The position numbers and the translations under genes are program-made. The notes beneath the pieces are model-generated. The model searched no databases, was not told the DNA's origin, and saw only the letters and a program-made list of their open reading frames with translations. From the NCBI RefSeq assembly GCF_002356555.2, contig NZ_AP017372.2, positions 930,001 to 994,000 of the forward strand: 64,000 bases of DNA. The letters are read 5' to 3'. This document shows positions 1 to 64,000 of this stretch, piece by piece. The stretch's first letter is position 1, and each line of letters opens with the position of its first letter. Source of the stretch: Halorhodospira halochloris (lineage in GTDB: Bacteria; Pseudomonadota; Gammaproteobacteria; Nitrococcales; Halorhodospiraceae).

Positions 1-558
1 TGCCCTGGCCGTGGGCGGCGATCAACAGATCGCAGCGCACATCGACGTTTCCACCAAACTGTGCTGCGCCACAATATGAGCAGTATAGTAAAAGCTGACC
101 TTGGGGATGAGCAGTTCAGCTACCACATTGATGAGCAGGCCTGGTCTGCGGCAGAGCGTATGGATGGCAAGCTGTTGTTAGTTACCAGCCTAAATGATTA
201 CCAAGCTCAGACTATAGTCGACCGCTACCGCTCCTTGGCTGATATCGAGCGCGGATTTCGGGCCTTGAAGAGCACCCTGCAGATCGCACCAGTGCATCAC
301 CGCTTGCCGGATCGAATTCGGGCTCACGCGCTGATCTGCTTTCTAGCCTTGATTCTATACCGTTTACTGCGCATGCGCCTTAAGGCCAATAAGTCAGAAT
401 ATAGCGTCGAGCGCGCACTAGAAGCGCTGGAATCAGTGCAATGGCATAGGGTCAAGATAAACGGCGAGTCACATACCGGCGTTTCGGTTAGCAATCTGCA
501 ACGTAAGCTATTTAAAGATATGGAGGTGAAGCCGCCGAAACAAGCAACCACCGCCTAA
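1..558 (+). CDS. IS1634-family transposase, C-terminal part (runs off left edge)
   Basis: The reading frame is open from the first base and ends with TAA, so only the 3' part of the gene lies in the window. The protein contains the C-terminal half of a DDE transposase: a YRSLADIERGFRALKS stretch that carries the catalytic Glu region of IS1634/IS4-like enzymes, then PVHHRLPDRIRAHALICF, the usual continuation in this family. A GTG at 61 and ATG at 76 could act as internal starts but are unlikely to be the real one. The stop is followed within about 40 bp by a headless outer-membrane protein frame, so the right end of the insertion sequence should lie near 560-600. Family assignment is from recognised motifs; activity cannot be judged without the N-terminus. 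Confidence 0.8.
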   Translation, partial: CPGRGRRSTDRSAHRRFHQTVLRHNMSSIVKADLGDEQFSYHIDEQAWSAAERMDGKLLLVTSLNDYQAQTIVDRYRSLADIERGFRALKSTLQIAPVHHRLPDRIRAHALICFLALILYRLLRMRLKANKSEYSVERALEALESVQWHRVKINGESHTGVSVSNLQRKLFKDMEVKPPKQATTA

Positions 559-13635: not shown

Positions 13636-13777
13636 ACCTCTAAAAACTCCGCCGGCGCCACCATCCGCCCCGGTGTGGAGGACGCCGTAAATCCATCCCT
13701 GGAGGCTTCATGGCGCCATCCCTGGCGCCAAGACCTCCACACCGGTGCGGATGGTGGCGCCGGCGGAGTTTTTAGAG
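13636..13777. repeat. Palindromic element, copy A
   Basis: Left arm 13636-13680 and right arm 13733-13777 (45 nt each) pair at 44 of 45 positions. The 52-nt loop (ACGCCGTAAATCC..., with the conserved core CATGGCGCCATCCCTGGCGC) is nearly identical to that of copy B. The ends are CCTCTAAAA / TTTTAGAGG. It lies between the divergent ABC exporter and nrdD. Spurious frames through the loop read VEDAVNPSLEASWRHPWRQD on one strand and should not be taken as genes. Confidence 0.9.
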
Positions 13778-28810: not shown

Positions 28811-29133
28811 GAATTGGTGACGGCTCAAGGGGTCCATCCATAAGCTCCCCTTGAGCCATATTAGCTGTCCTAGTGTGGGAACATCCGTGAATCCATCTAT
28901 GGGGGTTCATGGGTGCCTCTAAAACCTTCCCCGGAGCCATTTCTGTCCCGGTGTGGAGGACGCCGTGAATCCATACCTGGAGGCTTCATGGCGCCATCCC
29001 TGGCGCCAAGACCTCCACACCGGGACAGAAATGGCTCCGGGGAAGGTTTTAGCGGAGCCCTCATGGTGCCAACCCTGGCTTCAAGACTTCCACATAAGTT
29101 TTGCTAGTTGGCTCAGGGGGGAGTTTCAGAGGT
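28811..29133. repeat. Older, split copy of the palindromic element around copy B
   Basis: The outer left part (GTGTGGGAACATCCGTGAATCC... to CATGGGTGCC) and the outer right part (TCATGGTGCCAACCCTGGCTTCAAG... to TTTCAGAGG) are degenerate halves of the same element. They are separated exactly by copy B. TCATGG(G)TGCC occurs on both sides, as a target duplication would. A GGCTCAAGGGG/CCCCTTGAGCC hairpin at about 28824-28857 also lies in its left arm. Confidence 0.6.
28916..29052. repeat. Palindromic element, copy B (nested)
   Basis: Arms 28919-28959 and 29012-29052 pair perfectly over 41 nt, although their sequence differs from copy A (CCGGAGCCATTTCTGTCC against CGGCGCCACCATCCGC). The loop is almost identical to copy A, including CATGGCGCCATCCCTGGCGC. 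It lies within the older split copy, between the TsoY-like and DUF418 genes. Confidence 0.9.
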
Positions 29134-29238
29134 TCCTGAGAATGTGTAAATTACTAATCCTAACCTGCTGGTGTTACCCTGCAGGCACCTGAAGAGTCCA
29201 TAATCCAGAAAAGCGGCAAAGTCTTGCAAAACAGCGCC

Positions 29239-57616: not shown

Positions 57617-58441
57617 TTACTGCTCATCATCCATCCGGTATCCGATCACGAAGGGTAGCCCGGCGTGCCTGGTCATGTTGACCTCGACAGCGTAAGCGGC
57701 ATGGATATTATCGTGGGTGATTACCTTATCCGGTTGGCCCTCGGCGACTATTTGGCCACTTTCCAACAGTGCTATGCGATCGGCGAGCTGAACTGCTAGG
57801 TTGATCTCGTGGAGGACGATGAGTATCCCTTGATTGTGTTCGCGGCTATGCCGGCGCAAGATCTGGATAGTGTCGCGCTTGTGCTTCATGTCGAGGTGGT
57901 TGGTCGGCTCATCGAGCAGCAGAAAGGGCGTCTCACGGACTAGCGCCCGGGCGATTGCAGCCTTCTGTCGTTGGCCGCCACTGAGTTCAGTAAGCAGCTT
58001 GTTACTCATCGAATCGAGCCCTAGCTGCTCCAGCGTGTTGGCTACTGTAGCCATGTCATCTTCTGAGTAGTGCCAGCTGCTCCGGCGCAGGCCGAGCATA
58101 ACGCTCTCGAAGACGGTCATTGGATAGACTATGTCGGCTGCCTGGGGGACATAGGAGACCCGCTCGGCAATCTGCCATTGCCGCAACCTACGCAGGTCAT
58201 CGCCGGCGATATCAATGGTGCCGTGACGGCTGCGCAGAAACCGATTGGCGCACTTGAGCAGCGTGGTCTTGCCCGAGCCATTGGGGCCGATAAGCGCGAC
58301 TATCTCGCCACGGTTAATCTGCAGGCTGACCTCATCGAGGACCTTTTCTTTGCCGTAGGCAAAGGAGAGATCGCTGATGCTAAGCTTGTTATGCTCAGAG
58401 ACATAGCCACTAGTCGGCCTATTGGCACCTGCCTTAGACAT
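57617..58441 (-). CDS. Iron-siderophore/corrinoid-type ABC ATPase
   Basis: 274 residues from ATG 58441, preceded by AAGGGG; a GTG at 58462 overlapping the permease stop is an alternative that adds seven residues. Walker A GPNGSGKTT, Q-loop YVPQAADIVYPMTV, signature LSGGQRQK, Walker B FLLLDEPTNHLD, H-loop LHEINLAVQL. FepC/BtuD class. It closes the second uptake operon (receptor, binding protein, permease, ATPase), led by cobalamin riboswitch copy 3, so a corrinoid or cobalt-complex substrate is inferred. Confidence 0.88.
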   Translation of the reverse strand: MSKAGANRPTSGYVSEHNKLSISDLSFAYGKEKVLDEVSLQINRGEIVALIGPNGSGKTTLLKCANRFLRSRHGTIDIAGDDLRRLRQWQIAERVSYVPQAADIVYPMTVFESVMLGLRRSSWHYSEDDMATVANTLEQLGLDSMSNKLLTELSGGQRQKAAIARALVRETPFLLLDEPTNHLDMKHKRDTIQILRRHSREHNQGILIVLHEINLAVQLADRIALLESGQIVAEGQPDKVITHDNIHAAYAVEVNMTRHAGLPFVIGYRMDDEQ

Positions 58442-58458
58442 ATCATGGCCCCTTACGT

Positions 58459-59550
58459 TCACGCTGCAGCACCTTCGCGACGGCGCAGGATCAGGTAGAT
58501 GAATAATGGCGAACCGATGAATGCGGTAACCACGCCCACTGGCAGGATCACCGAGCCGAAGGCGTGGAGTGATACCAGATCGGCTAGTGCTAGCAGAAGG
58601 CCGCCCATAAGTGCCGTGGCCGGGATTAAGAAGCGGTGATCGGTGCCAATCAGCAATCTTGCCAAGTGGGGGGCAACTAGGCCGAGAAAACCGATGCCGC
58701 CAGTGAATGCGACCACCACGGCGACCAGAAACGCGACCAACAGCATCAAGGCTATCCGTAGCCTCTCCACAGCCATACCGAGGCTCTTGGCGGTATCGTC
58801 ACCGAGGAGAAGGCGGTTTAGGTCGTTGGCGCGCCAGAGAAAGACCGGCAATGTTAGCAGCAGGGCTATGCCGATAAAGGCCAAGCTCTCCCAGTTGGCG
58901 CGGCTGAGGCTGCCGACAGTCCAGAACATTACCTCGCGCGTGGCGTAGGCGTCGGAGAAGTAAACGATCAGGGTGGTGGTGGCGCCGAAAAAATACATCA
59001 GGGCGATACCGGCGAGGATCAGACTGGTGGGGGTCGCTCCCTTCCATTGGCCGATCATAAGGATAAGCAGTGATACCCCCATGGCGAAGATGAAGGCGTT
59101 GGCGACGATGCCGTACACGCCAAAAGCCGAAAAGCCGAAGACGATAACCAGGGCCGCACCCAGTGAAGCGCCGGAGGAGAGGCCGAGGGTAAAAGGCGAG
59201 GCCATGGGGTTGCGCAGCAGGGTCTGGAGGATAACGCCGCCGAGCGCTAGGCCCATTCCGGCGGTGACTGCCGTGCCCAGCCGGGGTAGGCGGATGTTCC
59301 AGACGACGTTCTCGATCTGGGAGCTGACCAGTCCCCCACTGACCCACGGTGAGAGTAGAGCGCGGAGCGTATCCATGGCGCCGATCTGCAACGGTCCGAG
59401 GGTAAGACCGTAGACGCTTACCGCGCCCAGACTGCCAATTAGAGATAGTAAGACCAACCAGCGGCGGCGATTTTGCGCTCGGTAGGCGGTGACCGGTGAG
59501 CTATACCCGCCGGTAGTTTTAGCAGTTTTATGGCTGGCCTGCTGAGTCAT
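58459..59550 (-). CDS. FecCD-family ABC permease
   Basis: 363 residues from ATG 59550 (MTQQASHKTAK). The much longer frame upstream runs through palindromic element C and is rejected. Ten transmembrane helices with FecCD motifs: NIRLPRLGTAVTAGMGLALG, GGVILQTLLRNPMASPFTLG, GGIGFLGLVAPHLARLL, LPVGVVTAFIGSPLFIYLIL. It pairs with the ATPase encoded downstream. The N-terminal about 45 residues are polar and precede the first helix. Confidence 0.88.
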   Translation of the reverse strand: MTQQASHKTAKTTGGYSSPVTAYRAQNRRRWLVLLSLIGSLGAVSVYGLTLGPLQIGAMDTLRALLSPWVSGGLVSSQIENVVWNIRLPRLGTAVTAGMGLALGGVILQTLLRNPMASPFTLGLSSGASLGAALVIVFGFSAFGVYGIVANAFIFAMGVSLLILMIGQWKGATPTSLILAGIALMYFFGATTTLIVYFSDAYATREVMFWTVGSLSRANWESLAFIGIALLLTLPVFLWRANDLNRLLLGDDTAKSLGMAVERLRIALMLLVAFLVAVVVAFTGGIGFLGLVAPHLARLLIGTDHRFLIPATALMGGLLLALADLVSLHAFGSVILPVGVVTAFIGSPLFIYLILRRREGAAA

Positions 59551-59572
59551 AGGAGCTTTAAATCTATACTGT

Positions 59573-59716
59573 GGCGCCTCTAAAATTTCCCCGGAGCCAT
59601 CATCCGCCCCGGTGTGGAGGCCATGGCGCCAGTGATGGCTCCATGCAACCTCCAGGGAGGGGGTCACGGCGTCCTCCACACCGATCGGATGATGGCTCCG
59701 GGAAGATGGAGGCGCC
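59573..59716. repeat. Palindromic element, copy C (inverted loop)
   Basis: Left arm 59573-59620 and right arm 59673-59716 pair over most of their length (GGCGCCTC at one end; GGAGCCATCATCCG in the stem). The loop is in the opposite orientation to copies A, B and D: CATGGCGCCAGTGATGGCTCC is complementary to their core. It lies inside the operon, between binding-protein and permease genes. Confidence 0.88.
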
Positions 59717-59732
59717 TACCAAAAGCAGTGGG

Positions 59733-60932
59733 CTATTTTGAGGTGTTCTCCAGCAGGCTGCTTTGCTCATTAAGGTGCTCAAACAAGCCTTCCTGGCCGT
59801 AGAATTTATTAAGTATTTGCTCGCCACGCTGAGCGGTATCTATATCATCGAACGCCTCAGGGTAAAGGATTTTGCCCATATGGATCAGATCTATCAGGCC
59901 GGTCGCCAAGTCCCAGCCCATATAGGTTCCCTTGAAGCGGTAGATGTTACCATCCTGTACTGCGCTTATCTGCGCTAGGCTCGAATCTTCGCCTATCTCA
60001 CTGGCTGCAACACGGCTCGTTTGCGATGGGGTGTGGAGGAAGATGTACTCCGGATCCCAGGCCAGTAACTGCTCAGCGCTTATCTCGCCATCCCGGCCGC
60101 GCCTCGCGGTCGCGACATTATCCGCGTCTAGTTGCTCGATCGGCAAGTAGAAGGCTACGTTGTTGAACAGGTTGCTGCGATGGGCCATGTAGACGCGCGG
60201 TGCGGCAAGCTCCTGAGCCTCTTTGCCTTGTTCTGCGGCAGCGCTCTTGCGGTGCTCGGCGATGCGCTCCTGGATCTGTTCAACCTCGGTAAAGTAATCC
60301 TCGACCAGGCTTGAGGCGCGCTCTTCACGATCAAGAACCGCACCCATGAGCTGGTAGGCCTGTTCAATCTCGGCGTAGATCTGTTCCTCTTCGCGGTCAC
60401 GCCCTAGGGTGTTGACGGCGATGACCGGTATGCCGAGTTGTTGCTGGATCTGATCGGCACGGTTTGCCATCGCCTCTGCCGAATCGCCGCGACTGAAGGC
60501 CCAGAATAGAAAGACATCGGGCTCGACGCTGACGATTTTCTCCAGGCTTATCTCTGACCCGGGTTGGCCACCGCCAATTTTGGGGGTGTTTTCAAGACCG
60601 TCAAAGGCGCGTGCCTCGATGGTCTTGTCCTCGGAGAAGCGCGAACCGAACATGTCGCTGGGGATGCCGACGAGCTTTTCGCCGGCATCAAGGTGGAGCG
60701 TCATGCGAAAGGCATCGACGTTGACGGTGGCAACCCGTTCGACCTCTGCGGGGATCTCGACGCTGCGTCCGAGCATGTCTTCAACGGTTTGGGTTTCAGA
60801 CGATGACTCCACGTCCGGTGTGGCTTGCTCGGTCGGCTTGAAGTCATCGCAGCCGGTGCTTGCCCAGAGCAAGAGTAGGGCGCCAACCGGGATGGCTATC
60901 CAGCTCGGAAGTCGGCGTTGTTTAGGTTGCAT
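59733..60932 (-). CDS. ABC substrate-binding lipoprotein (class III)
   Basis: 399 residues. The N-terminus (KQRRLPSWIAIPVGALLLLW) ends in ASTGC, a slightly irregular lipobox, so the mature protein is probably tethered at Cys 28. Binding-protein motifs: EDMLGRSVEIPAEVERVATV, SLEKIVSVEPDVFLFW, LLAWDPEYIFLHTP. It is larger than BtuF and contains an Arg/Glu-rich helical insert (VEQIQERIAEHRKSAAAEQG). It delivers substrate to the permease and ATPase encoded after element C. Located 106 bp behind the receptor gene. Confidence 0.85.
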   Translation of the reverse strand: MQPKQRRLPSWIAIPVGALLLLWASTGCDDFKPTEQATPDVESSSETQTVEDMLGRSVEIPAEVERVATVNVDAFRMTLHLDAGEKLVGIPSDMFGSRFSEDKTIEARAFDGLENTPKIGGGQPGSEISLEKIVSVEPDVFLFWAFSRGDSAEAMANRADQIQQQLGIPVIAVNTLGRDREEEQIYAEIEQAYQLMGAVLDREERASSLVEDYFTEVEQIQERIAEHRKSAAAEQGKEAQELAAPRVYMAHRSNLFNNVAFYLPIEQLDADNVATARRGRDGEISAEQLLAWDPEYIFLHTPSQTSRVAASEIGEDSSLAQISAVQDGNIYRFKGTYMGWDLATGLIDLIHMGKILYPEAFDDIDTAQRGEQILNKFYGQEGLFEHLNEQSSLLENTSK

Positions 60933-61038: not shown

Positions 61039-63195
61039 CTAAAAGCGCAGTTCGGCGGTGATTCGCACATCTCTGCCGGGCTCGCTGCGGATGTGATAAT
61101 CGCCGTTATCTTCCCAGGCTAAGGAGGTGTGCTCGGCGTAGCGGGTGTCGAAGAGGTTGTTGATGGCCAAGGCCAATTTCAGCTCTTCGCCGCCACCCGG
61201 TAGTCCAGAGGGGCCACAAGGCAGCCACTCAACCTGGATGTCGTGCAGATCGTAGCCGTCGCGCTCGGGCTCGTCATCCGGGACGTCGGTGTGGTCGCCG
61301 ACCCAGGTCAGCGTATAACCGAGGGTAATTTGTTCGGTTGCCGCCCAGCGGTTGTCCCATACCAGGCGGTCTCCGCCTATGCCACCACGGCGCCTGGATA
61401 CCCCTTGTGGGTCGCCGTCCTCGTTTACCGTTTCGGCGCTCATAAAGCTAAGTTGGGTGTCGTAGGTGGCGTAGCCCCAGGCAGCGCGGATCTCGAAACC
61501 GCGGGTTATTAGAGTGTCGTCGCGGTTGATGACATTACCTACTAGTGGGTCGTCTTCCTTCTGGACGCTTGGAGGTCTTCGATCGTCGTCCCATGTGACG
61601 GTGTAAGGGCTACCCCAATTGTCATCGCGCTCAATGCTATTATCTATCTTGGTTTCAAAGTAAGTCGCATTTAATTTGAAACTATCGCGTTCTTTGAATA
61701 ACCCTCTCGATTCATAGTCTAACCCTGCTTCCCAGCGGCTCGATTCTTCAGCCTTGAAAGGCTCATCGTTGTTTAGGTTGGTTCGCTCATCTATAAACTG
61801 CATCCAACCAACAGGGATTAAGCCGCTGCCGCTTACTGCCTCACCGTAGCCGGCAAATGCAGTCCATCCTTCAGTCATTTCAAAATCTGTACTGATATTA
61901 GGCGATAAGGCATCGCCTTCAAGCTTGCGATCGAAAAATTCTGTTGAGTAATCATCAAAACGCGCCCCTAGCGATACACCCAAGCGTCCGTAACGCATCC
62001 GGTTCTGTAAGAAGAGACCGAGGTTGCGTGATTCGTGGCTGAGATCAGGTTCATCAGGGCGGTTGTTTTGGCCGTCCTCCAGGTAGTAGTCAGCACCCGC
62101 GGTCAACCTATGCTCGCTATCCCCGATGTGAAAAGTGAAGGTGTTGCGCAGATCGGCGCCGTGCTCCAGGGCGCGGGTCTCGCTATCATCATCGAGGCGT
62201 TTGAGGCGGTTGTCGTTGCGGTAGATGTTTAATCGCCAATCAATATGGTTAGCATCCGGGTCGTAGTGGTGCGCGAAGTTATAGGTGTCACGCTCGCGCT
62301 CTTGTCTGACCTCGTCCTGGCGTGTTTCAAGTTTAGGATCACCGAAATCACTGCCTATGGAACCATAGGCGTGATCGCCGACGAAGGTGTTGCGCTGGGC
62401 GCTAAAGCGTAGCTCATGGTCGTTAAAGCGCGACTCGTCGCCGTTTGTCTCCGGTATCCGGCTAAGCTTAAGCATATAGTCGCGGTCCCGTCCCCCCGAG
62501 CCGGGCATGGTGCCGCCTTCGCCGATACGATAATCGTCGCGGTTTACAGCACTTATGTGGGAGAGGATGCCGGTGTTTTGGCCCAGCATGGCGTAGGCGG
62601 TGGTCGAGCCGCGATACGATTTATCCGCGCTGGCGTAACCGGTTTTGGCCCGCGCTCCCCGATCTTTATCGGGTAGCAGCAGATCCTGGGCATCTTTGGT
62701 GGTAAAGCGAATGCTCCCGCCAAGTGCACCTGCGCCTTGGTCGGCGGCGGGGCTTGGGTCGATATCGACCGCTTTGAGGAGGTCCGGGTCAATACCGCTT
62801 AGGCCACCGCGGTGTTGGTGCAGATCGCGCCCCTCGCGAGCCCCATCGATAGTAACGTTTAAATTGTTGGCCTCAATGCCGCGCAGATAGAGGCGCTGCG
62901 CGTTACGGCTGCCGCCGCCGACGTTGGCCGCTGCCTCGCCGCGAAATATCTCGCCGCTATGTGATGCCTGGCGACGTTGCAGCAGTTCACTGCTGATGCT
63001 GCTAGCGCCGCCCTCGGCGCCAGCTTCTATGGTGACCGGTGAGAGCAAGGTTGTGCCGGCGCCAGAGCTGGTGGTTATGGATTGGCTGTCTTGTTGTTCG
63101 GCTAGCAGTGCCGCGGGGTAGAGGGCCGAGAGGGATAGTAAGCCTAACGATCCGAGAGAGAATTGTCTTAAGTTATGGGAATCAAACCTTAACAT
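61039..63195 (-). CDS. TonB-dependent outer-membrane receptor
   Basis: 718 residues. Signal peptide to about residue 32 (LLSLSALYPAALLAEQ). Plug domain: LYLRGIEANNLNVTIDGARE, LKAVDIDPSPAADQGAGALGGSIRF. The barrel carries NLFDTRYAEHTSLAWEDNGD near the end and terminates in VRITAELRF, with the correct terminal Phe. The plug resembles heme/hemophore-type receptors (GREGRDLHQHRGG-like), but the riboswitch upstream argues for a corrinoid or cobalt-related substrate. First gene of the minus-strand uptake operon. Confidence 0.9.
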   Translation of the reverse strand: MLRFDSHNLRQFSLGSLGLLSLSALYPAALLAEQQDSQSITTSSGAGTTLLSPVTIEAGAEGGASSISSELLQRRQASHSGEIFRGEAAANVGGGSRNAQRLYLRGIEANNLNVTIDGAREGRDLHQHRGGLSGIDPDLLKAVDIDPSPAADQGAGALGGSIRFTTKDAQDLLLPDKDRGARAKTGYASADKSYRGSTTAYAMLGQNTGILSHISAVNRDDYRIGEGGTMPGSGGRDRDYMLKLSRIPETNGDESRFNDHELRFSAQRNTFVGDHAYGSIGSDFGDPKLETRQDEVRQERERDTYNFAHHYDPDANHIDWRLNIYRNDNRLKRLDDDSETRALEHGADLRNTFTFHIGDSEHRLTAGADYYLEDGQNNRPDEPDLSHESRNLGLFLQNRMRYGRLGVSLGARFDDYSTEFFDRKLEGDALSPNISTDFEMTEGWTAFAGYGEAVSGSGLIPVGWMQFIDERTNLNNDEPFKAEESSRWEAGLDYESRGLFKERDSFKLNATYFETKIDNSIERDDNWGSPYTVTWDDDRRPPSVQKEDDPLVGNVINRDDTLITRGFEIRAAWGYATYDTQLSFMSAETVNEDGDPQGVSRRRGGIGGDRLVWDNRWAATEQITLGYTLTWVGDHTDVPDDEPERDGYDLHDIQVEWLPCGPSGLPGGGEELKLALAINNLFDTRYAEHTSLAWEDNGDYHIRSEPGRDVRITAELRF

Positions 63196-63319
63196 TCAGC
63201 GCTCCTCATCATCTGATGGGCGCTGGCGACAGTTGCTGGGGGAAGGGCGGCGCAGCAAGCAACGCAATAGCGCGTGGCTGCGCTACTGTGTGATTACAGA
63301 AGTGCCTATGCCCCCAGGC

Positions 63320-63760
63320 GCGCCGCCCGCACGCCGTTACATGGGTTGTGGTGGGACGGTCTCCGGGCTCGTGGGGCAGCCAGATCGACACCAACTCTGA
63401 TGTTGATCTGCTGAGCGGATCGCCTTCCCACGGAGGCCGCCTGAATGACGGCTGTTCCGCAGTGGCTTGCCCGGGCACCTTGAAGACTCCTCTGGAGCCA
63501 TTTTCCTGGACTGGTGTGGAGGACGTCTTGCATCCATCCTTGGAGCCTTCATGGCGCCATCCTTGGCGCCAAGACCTTCAAACCAGGGCAGAAAATTGGC
63601 TCCGGGGGAGCTTGCGATATGCCCGTTTACTTGCTCCCTATGGGCGCGCCTTATTCACGCCCCTCGAGAGCAAGCTGATCCGCTATACCCACCTACCGTT
63701 GCGGGGGCAGCGCCGGCTTCACCGCTACTTGCGGCTGTACCGGACTTCCCGTTTCCCAAC
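63320..63760 (-). promoter_or_regulatory. Cobalamin riboswitch, copy 3, interrupted by element D
   Basis: Minus strand, in order: GGGAAACGGGAAGTCCGGTA, GCGCTGCCCCCGCAACGGTA at about 63720-63698, then an insertion, then GCCACTGCGG near 63465, GTGGGAAGGC and the B12-box GAGCCCGGAGACCGTCCC near 63360. The two halves are about 230 nt apart instead of the 20-40 nt in copies 1 and 2. All conserved blocks survive. The GGCGTGCGGGCGGCGCGCCT platform equals that of copy 1. Confidence 0.85.
63478..63615. repeat. Palindromic element, copy D (inside the riboswitch)
   Basis: Arms around CTCTGGAGCCATTTTCCTGG (63489-63510) and CAGAAAATTGGCTCCGGGGG (63589-63608) pair imperfectly. The loop CATCCATCCTTGGAGCC then TTCATGGCGCCATCCTTGGC matches copies A and B. 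It occupies the peripheral arm of riboswitch copy 3. Confidence 0.8.
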
Positions 63761-63767
63761 CAGTGGG

Positions 63768-63823
63768 GTGCCTCTAAAGCCCCACCTTGCGCCAATTGGC
63801 TAAGGGGAGTTTTAGAGGCGCCC
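63768..63823. repeat. Short palindrome, copy E (loop deleted)
   Basis: GGTGCCTCTAAAGCCCC...GCGCCAA faces TTGGC-AAGGGGAG-TTTTAGAGGCGCC across a 4-6 nt loop. Only the arms of the element family remain. It lies just 5' of riboswitch copy 3 in the transcript. Confidence 0.75.
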
Positions 63824-63849
63824 AGTGCTTTCAAAGCTAACAGGATTCT

Positions 63850-64000
63850 TTAAAGGCGACGCATCCTACAGTGGAAAAGGCTTAAAAGCAAATTGCCGTC
63901 GATATCGCATAGCTCCAGGCTGCTGGTCTCTGGGGTAAGCGCTGCGCTGGCGCTCTGCAGATTTGCGAGCAGGAATAGGGTGTTGATGCTGGCGGTATCG
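63850..64000 (-). CDS. C-terminal end of an unidentified gene (runs off right edge)
   Basis: A minus-strand frame is open from the window edge to TAA at 63850 and encodes about 49 residues (SINTLFLLANLQSASAALTP then SLELCDIDGNLLLSLFHCRM). The text is protein-like, with a plausible strand-turn-strand, but too short for a family call. Confidence 0.35.
   Translation of the reverse strand, partial: DTASINTLFLLANLQSASAALTPETSSLELCDIDGNLLLSLFHCRMRRL
63863..63891 (-). promoter_or_regulatory. Candidate promoter of the second uptake operon
   Basis: Minus strand TTGCTT (63891-63886), 17-bp spacer, TAGGAT (63868-63863). It lies upstream of element E and riboswitch copy 3, inside the end of the partial frame below. 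Confidence 0.35.

Follow-up and report, generated by a model that had tools for sequence, protein, structure and literature searches.

Kissing between loops L5 and L13 with sequestration of the ribosome binding site (RBS) is an established mechanism of control by cobalamin riboswitches (PMC10653944). In the aptamer of the E. coli btuB riboswitch an optional stem, P9, occupies the same place as the insertion described below (PMC5359240). The nearest precedent that we found for a mobile repeat associated with riboswitches is in pneumococcus, where two T-box riboswitches upstream of trp have a BOX element between them (PMC3049150). No description of palindromic or transposable elements inside riboswitches was found in the open-licence PMC literature. 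The window analyzed here is a 64,000-nucleotide stretch of the genome of Halorhodospira halochloris, a purple bacterial species of salt lakes that was since transferred, together with Halorhodospira abdelmalekii, to Halochlorospira (PMC8877833). Near one end of the window, a mobile palindromic element, copy D, interrupts the aptamer of a cobalamin riboswitch. We consider it quite probable that D is a tolerated insertion and that the translational riboswitch around it is still functional.

The interrupted RNA is best read as a class-I cobalamin riboswitch of the translational type, located in the 5′ leader of a B12-transport operon. All features of the riboswitch, of its insertions, and of the operon described below are on the minus strand. 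The aptamer extends from the P1 5′ strand, UGGUUGGGA (63762-63754), to the P1 3′ strand, UCCCACCA (63356-63349), and therefore covers 63349..63762 with D inside. Helices were numbered by analogy with E. coli btuB (PMC5359240), P10 being GCC/GGC, P11 CTGCGGA/TCCGTGG, and P9 the arm of about 50 nt. The blocks AACGGGAA, GCTGCCCCCGCAAC, GCCACTG, GGGAAGGC, and GAGCCCGGAGACC were found in this order and all the conserved blocks of the aptamer are present. The GCTGCCCCCGCAACGG block was read in the sequence from 63711 downward, and the conserved GCCACTG block, which comprises P10, J10/11, and the start of P11, is at 63460..63466. The interval between these two blocks contains the P8 5′ strand AGCGGATC (63677..63684), an arm of about 52 nt at the P9 position (63625..63676), and then D (63473..63624). 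The P8 5′ strand pairs perfectly with 63421-63414, where the P8 3′ strand GATCCGCT (63414..63421) was identified by complementarity and by the predicted fold; elsewhere in the genus the P8 strands are TGCGGAT/ATCCGCA. The P1, P3, P7, P8, and P10 strands flanking D are mutually complementary, and direct reading of complementarity indicated that the core and peripheral helices P3, P4, P6, P7, P8, P10, and P11 can form across the insert, which is part of an intervening stretch that keeps the riboswitch halves about 210 nt apart. The initial annotation had proposed that D splits the aptamer before GCCACTG with every conserved block retained, and this arrangement was confirmed. On the plus strand, a 151-codon open frame that is probably spurious lies antisense to the riboswitch and D (63348-63803).

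The riboswitch is missed by Rfam owing to the insert, which exposes a gap in annotation. While the two other cobalamin riboswitches in the window match RF00174 with 99.9 and 97.0 bits, the interrupted copy scored 30.9 bits, the cut-off being 31.5. The low score is due to the insert, which breaks the alignment: the Rfam model places the 3′ half wrongly, in the stretch adjoining D, and part of the true 3′ half appears as a separate match of 9.3 bits. Assignment of the two halves to different riboswitches by a covariance search, an outcome that the initial annotation had named as contrary to its reading, could be deduced from this split at a permissive threshold. However, the D-free orthologue in H. 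abdelmalekii produced one Rfam match of 43.8 bits and its blocks are contiguous, so the split is a misalignment and not evidence for two riboswitches. As judged from these sequence comparisons, both halves belong to a single riboswitch.

The sister used for comparison was H. abdelmalekii DSM 2110 (NZ_NRRN01000011.1), that is, two close genomes with one strain per species were compared. The orthologous leader carries the same riboswitch without D and without E, a second element copy described below; this is the uninterrupted form that the initial annotation had suggested looking for in sister strains. The same blocks are contiguous in the sister apart from the stem of about 50 nt, which is common to both species and was already in the junction before D arrived. 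The location of D had been explained by the initial annotation as the region where riboswitches vary most in length. This reason was wrong: among 39 riboswitches, which come mostly from the same order, 35 have a spacing of 22-25 nt between CCGCAAC and GCCACTG, and the other four have 44, 55, 73 (the sister), and 228 nt (the interrupted copy). The insertion site is instead that of an optional stem.

Copy D is a full-length, 152-nt MITE-like element (GGGCAT...GGTGCCC) with no intact target-site duplication. It aligns end to end with the 152-nt consensus of its family at 82% identity. The family elements, shorter than 500 bp, have terminal inverted repeats GGGNACCTCTAAAA ... TTTTAGAGGTNCCC and the terminus GGGAACCTCTAAAA. 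Copy E (58 nt, 63766..63823), just 5′ of P1, is a derivative without the core that consists of the terminal arms only. It is flanked by a CACT target-site duplication, at 63824..63827 upstream and at 63762..63765 downstream, where it overlaps the first base of P1; the empty site in the sister is CCACTGG. Both copies had been described as palindromes, and the strong hairpins and the location of E just upstream were verified: D folded alone reached −74.1 kcal/mol (z = −5.6, with none of 200 shuffles as good), and E, a near-perfect palindrome, −36.4 kcal/mol (z = −5.5). They are not generic palindromes, though. According to their sequences, D and E are copies of a MITE-like mobile family, whose copy number in the genome was estimated at ~350-400 from sampled stretches (75 covariance-model matches in 564 kb, and 86 BLAST core matches in the same sample). 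H. abdelmalekii had four copies in 868 kb, every one on stretches picked for holding copies. The target-duplication test included 107 copies with flanks, of which 75 had clean ends. An exact 4-bp duplication, often of the form C-NNNN-G, was present in 25 of these 75, while 0.42 were expected and the maximum in 2000 permutations was 3. Orthologous sites were empty in all four testable cases, that of D included, and the E site was empty too. The 4-bp target duplication at many sites of the family, together with the sister riboswitch without D, indicates that D was inserted.

Mis-joins often arise at high-copy repeats, and an assembly artefact or chimera would place D elsewhere in the organism. 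We regard this as extremely improbable, since the genome is a single contig of 2.83 Mb, the aptamer halves flanking D match one orthologue in the right order, the nearby E has a clean target duplication, and three other copies have the same empty-site pattern.

A search with PF01609 produced six matches, with no convincing matching ends at a transposase, and a search with PF05598 produced no match. A DDE_Tnp_1 transposase gene runs into the start of the window (1-357; G000:C1:929407-930357), with only weak matches to the element termini around it. Several adjoining copies and fragments at 28842-29136 of the window look like nested or composite insertions, and composite copies (e.g., L064) and two-copy clusters occur in the family. 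The changes in the arms within copies are symmetric, with 317 compensated double changes compared to 128 when the right arms were shuffled. This joint change fits selection for pairing or hairpin-templated (quasipalindrome) correction; shared ancestry within subfamilies may account for some of it. A role of the element as an RNA acting for neighbouring genes was considered and rejected: relative to the genes in tandem contexts, 9 copies were sense and 10 antisense by crude ORF calls, and this balance argues against a general RNA function for the neighbours. Balanced orientation would fit an element that is recognized as a folded DNA strand, or a property related to mobility.

The core of the element folds as a three-way junction, supported by strong covariation, in which two hairpins have the form CA-GGGA-TG (CA-GGGA-UG in RNA). 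It is conserved in D (63514..63583), where the covariance model R1 matched over its full length with 72.4 bits. In addition to that of D (63514-63583), core copies are found in the window at 59612-59681, 28951-29020, and 13673-13742, and further loci are L082-L100 and L208-L219. Copies from other genera retain AAGCCTCCAGGGATGGATTCACGGCG with few changes and the two hairpins, and vary widely in stem 1 and the outer arm. A set of 19 sequences, drawn from at least 14 genomes, had changes on both sides in 20 of the 27 pairs; the compensated cells numbered 116, versus 37 in shuffles and at most 15 with the partner slid. Of the 185 Gammaproteobacterial genomes sampled, 32 had matches to the core model, and many of these had at least 27 copies each. 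A core search of plasmid records found none, no Rfam family was matched by any element copy in the window, and neither the core sequence nor the repeat in the genus had a description that we could find in the open-licence PMC literature. The strong covariation, the presence in many genomes, and the lack of an Rfam match for the window copies make this repeat family worthy of its own description. A wider proposal would have D as a member of an undescribed, Gammaproteobacteria-wide mobile class that is selected for its fold, with variable palindromic arms surrounding the conserved junction, and whose machinery reads the folded strand, one copy having been incorporated as a structural branch into a B12 riboswitch that still works. 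We advance it only tentatively, as a rather unlikely reading.

Downstream of the aptamer, the L13 segment CTGGGGG (63311..63317) has complements in L5 (CCCCC) and in CCCCCAG at 63242-63236. The RBS hairpin, CAGCGC...GAGGAGCGCTG (63197..63225), is directly before the ATG at 63195. The L5 CCCCC/L13 GGGGG complementarity is present, the RBS hairpin is kept across the genus, and every Halorhodospira orthologue read has the conserved platform (CTGGGGG, CCCCCAG, and the RBS hairpin). The gene predicted to be controlled by the riboswitch codes for a TonB-dependent outer-membrane receptor (61039..63195). The operon also includes genes for a periplasmic binding protein in a BtuF-like position (59733..60932), a FecCD-type permease with BtuC as its best NCBIfam match, below the cut-off of that model (58459..59679), and an ABC-transporter ATPase in a BtuD-like position (57617..58462). 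None of these transport proteins reached an NCBIfam cut-off, and the receptor was scored higher by heme-receptor models than by BtuB models. With all protein models below cut-off, it is the riboswitch and the permease that suggest a corrinoid as the transported compound. Another element copy, C (59573-59683 of the window), extends into the permease ORF (58459-59679) at its 5′ end; the long N-terminal extension of the permease (MEDAVTPSLEVAWSHHWRHGLHTG...) is therefore element-derived, and the true start is probably further downstream. In H. abdelmalekii (L102/L025, G002:C11:37927-37928), the segment matching window 59000-60578 is missing. It corresponds to the start of the permease gene and the end of the binding-protein gene, and it looks as if the same transporter is broken in that species or the contig is mis-joined. 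Upstream of E, CGACGGCAATTTGCTTTTA is conserved in both species (63843-63900). Overlapping this stretch is TTGCTT-N17-TAGGAT, a possible promoter that would put E and D inside the transcript; a promoter scan by consensus reported nothing, this candidate included. A terminator in D was also considered and rejected: there was one terminator-like match, with as many in shuffles, and no T-run follows the D or E hairpins.

Secondary structures were predicted with and without D. The minimum free energy structures outside D were identical in both cases, for the aptamer and for the 701-nt leader from 63861. Helix probabilities with and without D were, respectively, 0.98 and 0.98 for P8, 0.93 and 0.90 for P10, 0.98 and 0.98 for P11, and 0.86 and 0.86 for P1. 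With D present, P4, P7, P8, P10, and P11 were predicted at 0.93-1.00, pairing of D outside itself was 0.000, and the RBS hairpin was unchanged, in predictions that are blind to the docking of J11/10 with J6/3, an interaction that could suffer from an additional branch at the junction. Neither P3 nor P5 appeared in the predicted fold, whether D was present or not. Loss of an essential helix is thus not predicted, and ligand binding, which the initial annotation had thought might survive, probably does. The mean helix retention was 0.767 with D, 0.740 with other family members in its place, and 0.708 with dinucleotide-shuffled inserts. The idea that only a palindrome is tolerable at this site was not supported. 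Since 32 of 100 shuffled inserts left the predicted fold at least as intact as D did, the self-folding of D helps without being a demonstrable requirement.

The riboswitch could have been inactivated by D, through misfolding or slow folding, leaving the transporter operon constitutive or off. The P8-P10 spacing is normally very constrained, and the interrupted copy is the sole one just under the Rfam cut-off among the matches listed in 40 genomes. The low score, however, stems from the insert, neither the platform nor the kissing-loop complementarity is damaged, and the predicted fold is unchanged. Moreover, compared to the sister, the core had 0 substitutions in 137 positions while the P9 arm and platform spacer had 34 in 119 (Fisher p = 2.6e-13), although D looks like an old copy. 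The P4 arm changed with compensation (CCGC/GCGG versus CTGC/GCAG). The age of D was estimated from its divergence from the consensus, assuming near-neutral evolution of arms and spacers: its core diverges 11.5%, compared to a family median of 3.8%, and its arm mismatches are the fifth highest among 75 copies. The loss of its target duplication also points to an old copy. Provided that arms and spacers are close to neutrality (about 14% per lineage), the age of D would approach that of the species split, and about 15 changes should have accumulated in a core free of selection, where 0 were seen. As D looks old, much of the branch seems to have been lived with it in place, and the substitution pattern suggests that the switch kept working around D. 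This selection argument would be weaker if D had inserted recently, as a copy that had diverged beforehand. Taken together, we consider inactivation improbable.

Exaptation of D as a peripheral stem, an RNase site, or a stability element, altering the behavior of the riboswitch or mRNA and now under selection, is less probable still. D retains the full family fold and is among the older copies. E lies where this leader begins on the 5′ side, so that the transcript probably includes both copies, given the inferred position of the promoter. On the other hand, a core divergence three times the family median looks like decay, and the family has no strand preference.

The preferred reading, a tolerated insertion, would involve the following steps. 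A MITE-like element inserted in the aptamer, at the junction beside the optional P9 stem and between P8 and P10. D is predicted to fold onto itself and, for that reason, P1, P4, P7, P8, P10-P11, and the expression platform would fold as before; the insertion would convert the P8/P9/P10 junction into a four-way junction. Binding of B12 would dock L5 on L13, and docking would keep the RBS in its hairpin so that translation of the receptor falls. D would be a passenger whose main effect is to delay completion of the aptamer by the time needed to transcribe about 150 nt more; folding kinetics may be affected. Because the sister carries the same riboswitch without the element, the locus is a natural insertion experiment, in which direct comparison with the empty form can measure how well an aptamer tolerates a large insert that folds on itself. 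Mobile palindromes could in this way add peripheral stems to riboswitches.

Compared with described systems, this locus resembles E. coli btuB and RF00174 in having all the conserved blocks, P1, P3-P8, P10-P11, the L5-L13 complementarity, and a TonB receptor gene preceded by an RBS hairpin. The btuB riboswitch, also translational, has P9 and P12 stems, whereas here a 152-nt mobile element is located beside P9; the P2 hairpin is lacking here and in the sister too. The family shares with bacterial MITEs a size below 500 bp, terminal inverted repeats, short target duplications, high copy number, and stable transcribed stem-loops (PMC10969869). It differs in that searches with PF01609 and PF05598 found no autonomous partner, and in its core, a conserved covarying three-way junction found in many Gammaproteobacteria with arms that differ between species. 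REP, BIME, and REPIN sequences are likewise high-copy interspersed palindromes, but REPs are 20-40 bp long (PMC3733652), whereas the elements of this family are 152 bp with 4-bp target duplications. The BOX element is likewise a small mobile repeat co-transcribed with riboswitches, which are reported to be still regulatory (PMC3049150). BOX, however, is located between complete aptamers, and D is within one.
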